Below, piece by piece: positions 2,792 through 62,962 of a DNA stretch of 64,000 nucleotides. Every line of letters starts with the position of its first letter. Position 1 is the first letter of the stretch. The stretch lies in the NCBI RefSeq assembly GCF_012295575.1, contig NZ_CP051180.1:1550001-1614000 (forward strand). The letters run 5' to 3'. The position numbers and the translations under genes are program-made. The DNA is from Ferrimonas lipolytica (lineage in GTDB: Bacteria > Pseudomonadota > Gammaproteobacteria > Enterobacterales > Shewanellaceae). Under the pieces are notes generated by a model that was not told the DNA's origin, ran no database searches, and saw only the letters and a program-made list of their open reading frames with translations.

Positions 2792-3013
2792 GGCGGTGTC
2801 GTAGTTAGCTGTTGAGGTTTGTCTTAAACCTTCGGCTCTACCGATTGCAGCACACTTAAGGGGTTATGTCGCGGTGGCGAAAGCACAGTCTTGTATGCAT
2901 TAGGGGAGACCTTTTCCCCCTTTGGAATCGCCCTTTGCCTTAGGTCGCAGTCCAAAACGCTTTGATGGACTGCTCCAACGCAGCAGAAGAACAACATTAG
3001 TTGGCACACAGCC
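2792..3013 (+). mobile_element. MITE-like element, copy A (222 bp)
   Basis: Left end GGCGGTGTCGTAGTTAGCTG and right end AGTTGGCACACAGCC form imperfect terminal inverted repeats. The interior shares long blocks with the copies at 18948, 33735, 51309 and 62803, including TGTATGCATTAGGGG and CCTTAGGTCGCAGTCCAAA. About 70 bp present near the right end of copies B and D is missing. It fills most of the 429-bp gap between tRNA-Ser and the first chemoreceptor gene. A 73-codon reading frame across it is an artefact of the repeat. Confidence 0.75.
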
Positions 3014-18916: not shown

Positions 18917-18945
18917 AAAAAGGCCAACATTTATTGGCCTTATAT
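18917..18945 (-). terminator. Intrinsic terminator beyond adhE and MITE copy B
   Basis: AGGCCAA and TTGGCCT form a 7-bp stem with a six-base loop, followed on the minus strand by TTTTTGC. It lies 315 bp past the adhE stop; the MITE copy sits directly between them, which suggests insertion separated the gene from its terminator. Confidence 0.75.
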
Positions 18946-18947
18946 TA

Positions 18948-19233
18948 AGCTGTGTACCAATTAAGTGTTGTTCTTTCTAAGGCTATTAAAGTACTGGCGA
19001 GTCGCGATACAAAGGATAAAGCACTACCGCTATTGATCTTCTGCCGTAATGGACCAGTTCAGCGAAGCGTTTTGGACTGCGACCTAAGGCAAGGGGGATT
19101 CCAAAGGGGGCGAAGCGCCCCCTAATGCATACAAGAATGTGCCGTCGCCACCGCGACATCCGCCCTTAAAAGCACCGAAAGTGGTGAAGCCGAAGGATTA
19201 AGATAAACTTCAACAGCTTACTACGACACAGCC
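18948..19233 (-). mobile_element. MITE-like element, copy B (286 bp)
   Basis: Near full-length copy, inverted relative to A, D and E. Ends AGCTGTGTACCAATTAAGTG and CTACGACACAGCC are inverted repeats of each other over about 25 bp with mismatches. TTATATTA on the left and TTTTATTA on the right may be an 8-bp target duplication with one change. It occupies most of the gap between the adhE terminator and the adhE stop codon. Confidence 0.8.
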
Positions 19234-33701: not shown

Positions 33702-33731
33702 AGGGCGACCTCTACATGGGTCGCCCTTTTT
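33702..33731 (+). terminator. Intrinsic terminator of the DUF2238 gene
   Basis: AGGGCGACC and GGTCGCCCT form the stem, followed by TTTTT. MITE copy C begins four bases further on. Confidence 0.9.
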
Positions 33732-33734
33732 AAT

Positions 33735-33998
33735 GGTTGTTTTCCAACTAAGTGTTGTTCTTTCCAATGCTGTTAAAGCACCGACTAGGCGAGTTTTGAT
33801 ACCAGGGGAAAGCACTATTGCCGTAGATCTTCTGCTGCATTGGGTCAGTCCAGCGAAGCGTTTAGGACTGCTAAGGCAACGGGGATTTCAAAAGGGGCTT
33901 GGGTGCCGTAGCCACCGCGACACAACCCCCTTAAGCGTACTGCAACCGGTAGAGCCGAAGGCTTGATATAAACCTCAACAGTTAACTGTGACACTGTT
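33735..33998 (-). mobile_element. MITE-like element, copy C (264 bp)
   Basis: Same orientation as copy B. The left end TTTTCCAACTAAGTGTTGTT and right end CAACAGTTAACTGTGACAC match the terminal repeats with some decay. TTTTAAT flanks both sides exactly (33728-33734 and 33999-34005), a probable target duplication. It fills the gap between the DUF2238 terminator and the hybrid kinase stop. Confidence 0.78.
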
Positions 33999-49857: not shown

Positions 49858-51258
49858 ATGACAGTGGCAACCATTGCTGAAGTCCTAAAAGGCGACCACG
49901 CGGTCGGCACAGAAGTTACGGTACGCGGTTGGGTCCGCACACGCCGTGATTCAAAAGCCGGCATTTCCTTCCTGGCCGTGTACGACGGCTCCTGTTTTGA
50001 TCCAATTCAGGGCGTGGTACCTAACGAGCTGCCAAATTACGAGAATGAGATCCTGCGCCTCACCGCAGGCTGTTCAGTAGAGCTAACCGGTGAAGTTGTA
50101 GAATCACCTGGCAAAGGCCAGCAGTTTGAGTTGAAGGCTACTGGTGTAACCGTTGTTGGCATGGTTGAAGATCCAGATACCTACCCAATGGCTGCAAAGC
50201 GTCACTCTATCGAGTACTTACGCGAAGTTGCCCACTTGCGCCCACGCACCAACATTACCGGTGCGGTAATGCGCGTTCGCAACAGCCTGTCCCAAGCGAT
50301 CCACCGCTTCTATCATGAGCAAGGCTTCATCTGGGTATCTACCCCGCTGCTGACCGCTTCCGACTGTGAAGGCGCTGGTGAGATGTTCCGCGTGTCTACT
50401 TTAGACATGAACAACATCCCAAAAACCGATCTTGGCGAGATTGATTACGACCAAGATTTCTTTGGCAAGGAAACCTTCCTCACCGTATCAGGTCAGTTGA
50501 ACGCTGAAACCTACGCTTGTTCTATGAGCAAGGTTTACACCTTCGGTCCGACCTTCCGTGCTGAGAACTCAAACACCTCTCGCCACTTGGCTGAGTTTTG
50601 GATGGTTGAACCAGAAGTAGCATTTGCCGATCTAGATGACGCAGCCGCTCTTGCTGAAGGCATGCTGAAATACTGCTTTAAGGCAGTTCTGGCTGAACGT
50701 ATGGACGACCTTAAGTTCTTCGAACAGCGCGTAAACAAAGAGGTTATCTCTCGTCTACAAGCGTTTGTAGAAGCAGATTTTGCTCAGGTTGATTACACCG
50801 ACGCCATTAAGATCCTTGAAGAGTGTGGTCGCGAATTCGAATTCCCAGTTGAATGGGGCATCGATATGTCATCTGAGCACGAGCGCTACCTAGCTGAAGA
50901 GCACTTCAACGCCCCTGTGGTTGTTAAGAACTACCCTAAAGACATCAAAGCCTTCTACATGCGCATGAACGACGACGGTAAAACTGTTGCCGCAATGGAC
51001 GTATTGGCACCAGGCATCGGTGAATTGATTGGCGGTTCTCAGCGCGAAGAGCGTTTAGACATTCTTGACCAACGTATGGATGAGATGGGCCTGCCTAAGG
51101 ATGAAATGTACTGGTACCGCGACCTACGTCGTTACGGTACCGTACCGCACGCAGGTTTTGGTTTGGGCTTCGAGCGTTTGGTCTCTTACGTGACTGGCGT
51201 ATCCAATATCCGTGATGTGATCCCGTTCCCACGTGCACCACGCACCTGTAACTTCTAA
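49858..51258 (+). CDS. asnS: Asparaginyl-tRNA synthetase
   Basis: 466 aa, class IIb. An OB-fold anticodon-binding domain ([24 protein letters not shown]) is followed by the catalytic core with motif 2 [21 protein letters not shown] and motif 3 [10 protein letters not shown]. Very close to the E. coli enzyme. The start at 49858 matches it; an in-frame codon six residues earlier overlaps the GGAGAG region. Small hairpins (49783-49800, 49805-49819) lie in the leader. Confidence 0.98.
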
Positions 51259-51276
51259 ATCAATTTAGCTGTTACC

Positions 51277-51307
51277 AAAAACCCGCCAACATTGGCGGGT
51301 TTTTTTA
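51277..51307 (+). terminator. Intrinsic terminator of asnS
   Basis: ACCCGCCAA and TTGGCGGGT around a short loop, with As before and a run of Ts after. MITE copy D starts at its end. Confidence 0.92.
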
Positions 51308-51308
51308 A

Positions 51309-51598
51309 CGCCGTGTAGTAGTTAACTGTTGAAGTTTATCTTAAGCCTTCGGCTCTACCGATTTCGGCGCTTTTAGGGGACGATGTCACGGTGGCGACGG
51401 CACATTATTGTATGCATTAGGGGGAGTTCCGCCGCTTTGGAATCCCCTTTGCCTTAGGTCGCCGTCCAAAAAGCTTCGCTGGACTGCTTAAATGCGGCAG
51501 AAGATTTCAGCGACGGCAATGCTTTCCCCTTGTACCAGAACATGCCTAGGCGGTGCTTTAACGGCATTGAAAAAACAACACTTAGTTGGTACACAGCC
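51309..51598 (+). mobile_element. MITE-like element, copy D (290 bp, longest)
   Basis: Best full-length copy. Ends GCCGTGTAGTAGTTAACTG and CACTTAGTTGGTACACAGCC are inverted repeats. It aligns along its whole length with the reverse complement of copy B, including TTGTATGCATTAGGGGG, GGAATCCCC, CCTTAGGTCG and GGCAGAAGAT. No reading frame spans it. It begins one base after the asnS terminator T run and accounts for most of the 382-bp gap before the VanZ-like gene. Confidence 0.82.
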
Positions 51599-51640
51599 TT
51601 ATTAATAACTAAAACTAGTTCCTATCTCTAACAGCTAACC

Positions 51641-52084
51641 TTATTGGCTATTTTTCTGTTTCTTCGCAGCAAGCCACCACGATAGGCCATGAAACAAACC
51701 GATACCAGCGGCATCAGCCAACAGATCACGCCAATCTAGGGTACGAGAAGGCAACCATGCCTGACTGATCTCTTCTACAAGCACAAACAGCACTACCAGA
51801 AACGTACCTAACAACATAGGTATCGAACCCAGATTAACCTTTCTAAACCGCAAGCCCCAGTTAGCAAGCAGCGTCAACAGGCCAAACAGCATAAAGTGGC
51901 CAACCTTATCGCCATAGGGAACCTGTCGAACCAAGCCAAAAAACACACTGGATTGACCGGTATTAGCTAAATAAATGACCCACAAAATAAAACCAAAAAA
52001 TAGTAACGCGATAACACTACCGAGCCACCTACACTGATTTTCGATAATCACTCCTTGTTCGCTAAACAATTGCACTAACAGCAA
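51641..52084 (-). CDS. VanZ-like membrane protein
   Basis: Up to 147 aa with four membrane segments and the VanZ signature: YGDKVGHFMLFGLL, EEISQAWLPSRTLDWRDLLADAAGI. Relatives of VanZ give low teicoplanin resistance in Gram-positives; in proteobacteria the role is unknown. The start is uncertain: the frame opens with a TTG at 52084, and in-frame GTG codons further in also lack a clear site. Single gene. Confidence 0.8.
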   Translation of the reverse strand: MLLVQLFSEQGVIIENQCRWLGSVIALLFFGFILWVIYLANTGQSSVFFGLVRQVPYGDKVGHFMLFGLLTLLANWGLRFRKVNLGSIPMLLGTFLVVLFVLVEEISQAWLPSRTLDWRDLLADAAGIGLFHGLSWWLAAKKQKNSQ

Positions 52085-62775: not shown

Positions 62776-62802
62776 AAAGGCACCTATTGGTGCCTTTTTT
62801 TT
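62776..62802 (+). terminator. Intrinsic terminator of nhaB
   Basis: AAAGGCACC and GGTGCCTTT around TATT, followed by a run of eight Ts that reaches the first base of MITE copy E. Confidence 0.92.
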
Positions 62803-62962
62803 AGCTGTATTGTAGCTAGCTGTTGAAGCTTGTCTTAAGCCTTAGGTCGCAGTCCAAAGCGGCAAAAGATAAACGGCGGTTGTGCTTTACCCTTGTATCA
62901 AAACTCGCCTTACCTGAGCTTTAACCGTATTAGAAGAAACTACACTTAATTATTACACAGCC
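62803..62962 (+). mobile_element. MITE-like element, copy E (160 bp, internally deleted)
   Basis: Ends AGCTGTATTGTAGCTAGCTG and TTAATTATTACACAGCC match the family. The central ~130 bp seen in copy D (the GCGGTGGCGAC and TGCATTAGGGGG part) is missing, with a clean join of CTTAAGCC to TTAGGTCGCAGTCC. A run of T flanks both sides (62795-62802 and 62963-62969), as expected for duplication of the terminator T tract. Confidence 0.78.

Follow-up and report, generated by a model that had tools for sequence, protein, structure and literature searches.

Five intergenic segments in a 64-kb window of the Ferrimonas lipolytica chromosome (the window being the whole stretch of 64,000 nucleotides analysed here) align with one another, and they raise the question of what they are, what moved them and why they lie where they do. 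An initial annotation of the window described them as a dispersed, MITE-like family of five copies that occurs in both orientations, encodes nothing, has a high genome-wide number and is not linked to any transposase. In this study, we examine the size of the family, its insertion sites, its relationship to transposons of the same genus and its possible function. The segments belong to a new, very abundant IS1595-type MITE, 292 bp long and non-coding, and of the properties just listed only the last has to be withdrawn.

In the window, a search with the 23-base terminal repeat, allowing up to 3 mismatches, returned 9 matches, as compared to 0.19 expected from 100 shuffles. These account for nine of the ten ends that five copies should have, all at the boundaries listed in Table 1 with no others, and the tenth, the right end of the leftmost copy, was located at 3013. 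The five segments of the initial annotation were thereby recovered with the ends it had described, three in the orientation of the copy at 51309-51598 (copy D, counted among the three) and two in the opposite one.

Table 1. MITE copies and adjoining features in the 64-kb window. The orientation of MITE copies is relative to copy D.
Feature	Position	Strand	Remarks
MITE copy, 222 bp, internal deletion	2792..3013	+	End pattern; right end placed separately
Hairpin + ATATTA (weak T-tract) adjoining copy 18948-19233	18920..18947	+	Our terminator scan
MITE copy, 286 bp	18948..19233	-	Flanks 7/8 identical
Terminator hairpin + TTTTAAT adjoining copy 33735-33998	33702..33734	+	Our terminator scan
MITE copy, 264 bp	33735..33998	-	End pattern
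asnS gene, upstream of copy D	49840-51258		Gene name assigned
asnS intrinsic terminator, GGCGGG hairpin + T7	51276..51306	+	T-tract overlaps copy D insertion target
MITE copy D, 290 bp	51309..51598	+	Orientation reference; just beyond asnS terminator T-tract
Terminator hairpin + T8 at left junction of copy 62803-62962	62779..62802	+	T7 on right side
Short MITE copy, 160 bp, internal deletion	62803..62962	+	Downstream of nhaB gene; flanks 7/8 identical

The family extends far beyond the window, as the initial annotation had supposed. The genome, a single contig of 4,133,133 bp, contains 275 forward and 274 reverse matches to the end and none to a reversed-pattern control, which at two ends per copy amounts to about 275 copies. 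In twenty 20-kb stretches spaced evenly along the contig, 39 copies or fragments were counted, a density that corresponds to about 400 for the whole genome. The copy number in the 4.13-Mb Ferrimonas chromosome is thus about 275-400, that is, several hundred. Together, the window and the sample (464 kb) hold 44 copies, 35 of them with both ends; the other nine, the copy at 2792-3013 included, are without two recognised ends. None of the 44 lies inside a long open frame, and copies cover 2.6% of these sampled bases when partial copies are counted at full length. The 292-bp consensus begins with GG at both ends (GGCTGTGT...ACACAGCC) and has a longest open stretch of 80 codons, leaving no coding capacity for a transposase. 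The 22 near-full-length copies in the sample are on average 90% identical to the consensus (range 85-95%), so the burst that produced them is not very recent. Of the 35 two-ended copies, 7 have internal deletions that reduce them to 105-227 bp.

Larger arrangements of the element were also observed. At L111:9390-10299 (909390-910299 of the genome), three copies stand in tandem, separated by identical 8-bp spacers (AAATAAAA), and the outer flanks of this array are a different matching pair (TTTTTGTT) with a terminator next to them. Transposition of all three copies together, by way of the outer ends, may explain this arrangement. Copies apparently nested within other copies are found at L108:9297-9661 and L114:5140-5523.

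The flanks of most two-ended copies point to transposition. Seven or eight of the eight flanking bases are identical on the two sides of 22 of the 35 two-ended copies, as compared to 53 of 1190 pairs of mispaired flanks, and the duplicated target sites are A+T-rich; 13 of the 35 copies fall below this level of matching. The flanks of copy D agree in 6 of 7 bases (TTTTTAA and TTATTAA), and those of the copy at 33735-33998 form an 8-base match, ATTAAAAA, once one boundary is shifted by one base. The copy at 2792-3013, which our scripts treated as one-ended and left unscored, has no flank duplication and no terminator discernible by eye. Sites without the element were sought in 13 relatives, the closest of which by the asnS gene (87%) is G013. 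At the G013 site corresponding to the copy at 62803-62962, the hairpin is present and leads into a single T7, with the element absent. The asnS terminator hairpin and T-tract are present without copy D in 13 of 13 relatives, as judged by eye over 300-330 bp. Because the DNA downstream of copy D has no match in G013 or G010, the comparison there demonstrates absence and not an exactly restored target. Of the empty sites expected in relatives, the one at 62803 thus has a single T-tract in G013, and the one at copy D shows absence of the element only. The inverted repeats at the termini, the 8-bp duplications of the target, the identity of about 90% to the consensus and the absence of two copies at relatives' sites together uphold the designation as MITE-like.

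The assertion that the family is not linked to any transposase does not survive a search for genes lying between the same ends. The sole PF12762 match in the genome lies inside a 1029-bp element (L061, 1402-2430) that is bounded by two facing copies of MITE-type ends; 7 of its 8 flank bases match, and its transposase gene is interrupted. At L250:357-795 (about 3351056-3351494 of the genome) lies a 439-bp deletion derivative that has both ends and only the two termini of the transposase gene; such a derivative may represent an early stage in the formation of a MITE. In two sister species, G005 and G012, the same kind of ends enclose 1023-bp elements with open frames of 329 and 319 codons, and transposons with the shared ends are located at L083 (1015-2037) and L101 (215-1237). 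The 23-bp end common to the MITE and these transposons is GGCTGTGTnnnAnnTAAnTGTTG.

The partner proteins are IS1595-family transposases. All four matched the NCBIfam model of that family, NF033547, with 174-194 bits (cut-off 75), and the three that were compared with PF12762 lay above its cut-off. The N-terminal zinc-binding model NF050000 was above cut-off in three of the four, L069 being slightly under, and PF12760 was detected under cut-off in two of three. An alignment of the four proteins shows no variation at D146, D224, N260 and K267, residues that may correspond to the DDNK motif of the IS1595 family. Two G012 transposon copies that were compared are 99.9% identical, and the G005 transposase proteins are 100% identical; G005 corresponds to Ferrimonas futtsuensis, of which a named record (L147) matches the G005 transposase at 100%. 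In G012, two of the five transposon copies have a split transposase gene and the other three are open; at L103 and L253, the gene is split into two frames of 188 and 168 codons. A protein search of 14 genomes of the genus yielded in the host only interrupted or partial transposase matches and none intact. PF12762 was dropped as a transposase detector when it missed the G012 copies, and for this reason the statement that no intact copy was found rests on the protein search.

The similarity between the MITE and the transposons is limited to the ends, where it extends up to 37 bp, and the interiors are unrelated; the MITE therefore cannot have arisen simply by deletion from the transposon copies known so far. 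The unrelated interior, and the fact that no intact IS1595 transposase of the partner kind was found in the genome, might be expected if the MITE depends on a transposase of another family that generates 8-bp duplications and has come to resemble IS1595 at its ends by convergence. The best-matching ends of L061 and L083, however, are 91-92% identical to the MITE over 23-26 bp (their other ends, 81-83%), and in the sister species transposons and MITEs have the same target duplication and the same association with terminators, as described below. Such convergence is thus very improbable, and we retain an IS1595-family transposase as the partner of the MITE.

The locations of the copies were examined with our own scan for intrinsic terminators, which requires a hairpin and, after it, a T-rich tract close to the junction, and which was applied identically to copies and controls. 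A terminator adjoins 19 of the 35 two-ended copies, on the left in 9 and on the right in 10. At control positions in intergenic DNA, the figure was 3.2% for 2000 chosen at random and 10.1% for 2000 that are A+T-rich. The distance from T-tract to junction in these 19 copies is 0 bases in 16, 1 base in two and 10 bases in one; the remaining 16 of the 35 lie away from any recognised terminator. The association of MITE copies with terminators is firm. A generic promoter and terminator scan of positions 51200-51700 gave 0 terminator-like sites and no promoter, but this negative carries little weight because the same scan missed the asnS terminator, perhaps through extension of the stem into flanking A/T runs.

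The association recurs outside the host. In sister species, all 17 distinct two-ended insertions examined lie at terminators (9 in G013, 5 in G012, 2 in G005 and 1 in G010), and 13 of the 15 whose flanks were scored (all but L098 and L104) have flanks that match in 7 or 8 of 8 bases. The G013 loci are 11 stretches chosen from 59 end matches, and the G010 locus is one pair among 3 matches; L095, L105 and L106, which have no facing pair of ends, were omitted from the junction count, and L071 and L079, which have identical duplications, were taken to complete the insertions that are cut off at contig ends in L083 and L085. In 80 kb of G013, 57 of 116 intergenic homopolymer sites lie at terminators, and the corresponding count for 100 kb of G010 is 35 of 111, so part of the sister-species association is expected from a preference for A/T runs alone. 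Among transposon loci from named genomes, 14 of the 37 with confident ends adjoin a terminator, the control counts at the same loci being 217 of 14,800 for random positions and 23 of 456 for A+T-rich ones; 43 of the 80 loci were without confident ends, and one that was kept, L147, is the same insertion as L083. Neither of the two transposon remnants in the host's own genome (L061 and L250) is at a terminator. Three elements were drawn from further genera of the host's family; of these, L069 adjoins a terminator and L068 and L070 do not.

How the association arises is a separate matter. When each copy was compared with A+T-rich 8-mers of its own intergenic gap, a control that covers 30 of the 35 copies, 15 lay at terminators against 11.6 expected (P = 0.056), and because this result is only borderline, targeting is not separated from selection. 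With less than even confidence, we suggest that what an IS1595 lineage and its MITEs recognise at the target is the intrinsic terminator itself, a hairpin with its T-tract, which the transposase may sense as a DNA cruciform, a paused RNA polymerase or the nascent RNA. If so, gene ends would be a general safe harbour, which would have enabled growth to about 2.6% of the sampled sequence. It is possible, though we would not call it probable, that the bias instead reflects survivorship, with a transposase that prefers A+T-rich 8-mers and purging of the insertions that fall outside harmless gene ends. The same-gap figures are in keeping with this, in that A+T-rich 8-mers in gaps that hold copies are often at terminators anyway, as is the finding that gaps between convergent genes (genes being taken as long open frames) hold 23 of the 43 copies with neighbours on both sides, as compared to 46 of 227 background gaps; pneumococcal repeats have likewise been explained by tolerance downstream of genes, in the portion of PMC3049150 consulted. 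Homopolymer-matched sites argue against survivorship: among junctions with an A or T run of at least 5, 16 of 20 are at terminators, versus 166 of 620 such intergenic 8-mers (27%; Fisher P of about 2e-6, with overlapping positions treated as independent). So do the closely alike, presumably young transposon insertions of G012 (5 of 5) and G005 (2 of 2), which lie at terminators, and the position of the T-tract, whose end coincides with the junction or is a single base away from it in 18 of the 19 terminator copies.

The element might also have spread by usefulness, as a structured RNA or regulatory unit such as an mRNA-stabilising or sRNA element. The consensus does fold better than shuffled sequences in both directions (z of -2.7 and -4.2), although the terminal repeats alone account for part of this fold, and the interior is conserved, with a mean column identity of 88%. 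Base-pair evolution was assessed on an alignment (A3) of 32 rows, three of which are repeat reads of included copies; pair counting removed one of these as identical. Three measures slightly exceeded the shuffles, namely the percentage paired (a value reached in 12 of 500 shuffles), double-change cells (30 of 500) and the covariation score (17 of 500), but these can rise from relatedness alone, and a single pair supplies 8 of the 10 double-change cells. The two measures least affected by relatedness were at chance level: 3 of the 69 pairs had double changes, a number reached in 217 of 500 shuffles, and the value for further pair types was reached in 218 of 500. The consensus folds and an RNAalifold result had looked suggestive; the three measures above the shuffles are not relied upon here. 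The frequency of the 105-227-bp deletion variants also speaks against a conserved RNA, and the only Rfam matches in the window are two tRNAs. These tRNA genes (1688-1775 and 2543-2630) have identical Rfam scores and flank a 141-aa open frame. The case for an RNA role is weak, a useful RNA being a very unlikely reason for the spread of this family, and we take the element to be selfish.

We are confident that the five segments represent a non-autonomous MITE that was mobilised in trans by an IS1595-family transposase, that was very often inserted into T-tract targets, and whose helper has since decayed. The transposase would recognise the 23-bp ends, which MITE and transposons share, and would act on the MITE in trans. 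Insertion would duplicate an 8-bp A+T-rich target, as seen at most two-ended copies, and that target would very often be the T-tract of an intrinsic terminator, as the observed association suggests. Because the T-tract is duplicated on insertion, the terminator would keep its tail, and the insertion would probably be of little cost to the host; build-up to several hundred copies would follow from so low a cost. The helper transposon would then have decayed to what is now seen, one broken copy and one deletion derivative with no intact cognate gene. Since the searches gave no intact cognate transposase gene, the MITE has probably lost its mobility for now and would need a transposase of external origin to move again.

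These findings name a likely partner for a repeat that seemed orphaned and provide a case of a MITE burst that has outlived its helper transposon. The association with terminators in several hosts raises the question of whether a DDE transposase senses terminators, and by what; if terminators are sensed, this would be a naturally gene-sparing insertion system. For genome annotation, MITE copies beside terminators could pass for regulatory RNA.

The ends, at up to 2 mismatches, are matched in 14 of 116 genomes of the host's family, with 492 matches in the host (G000), 59 in G013 and 1 to 5 in each of the other twelve; a reversed control gave one match in each of three genomes, which places single matches at chance level. 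No match to the MITE was found in plasmid and phage collections. G013 has a related MITE family (L091-L100), in 264-bp and 490-619-bp forms with the same kind of ends. It resembles the Ferrimonas lipolytica MITE in that 8 of 9 two-ended copies have 7-8 of 8 matching flank bases and 9 of 9 are at terminators, and its interior similarity is patchy (76% over 95 bp in one). It differs in that its members are mostly longer and its end matches, at the same stringency, far fewer.

The IS1595 family comprises the IS1016, ISPna2, ISH4, IS1595, ISSod11, ISNwi and ISNha5 groups, as listed in the part of PMC8101967 consulted. The partner transposon agrees with this family in its one transposase gene, its IS1595 DDE domain and zinc-binding N-terminus, its 8-bp duplications and its GG ends; the MITE differs in that it has no gene. 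The excerpts of the IS1595 literature considered here make no mention of a terminator preference, and the open-licence literature, in the portions available to us, contains no report of the Ferrimonas MITE and none of terminator choice by IS1595. A close counterpart by description is ISHwa6, a Haloquadratum walsbyi MITE assigned to IS1595 (165 bp, 7 copies, IR 25, DR 8; summary data in PMC3852290). It too is short and non-autonomous, with 25-bp repeats and 8-bp duplications, but its host is archaeal and its 7 copies contrast with the 275-400 or so found here. The SPRITE, BOX and RUP elements of Streptococcus pneumoniae, as described in part of PMC3049150, are likewise high-copy small repeats that cluster between convergent genes. 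SPRITE, however, is itself terminator-like, whereas the Ferrimonas MITE adjoins host terminators that are present without the element in relatives.
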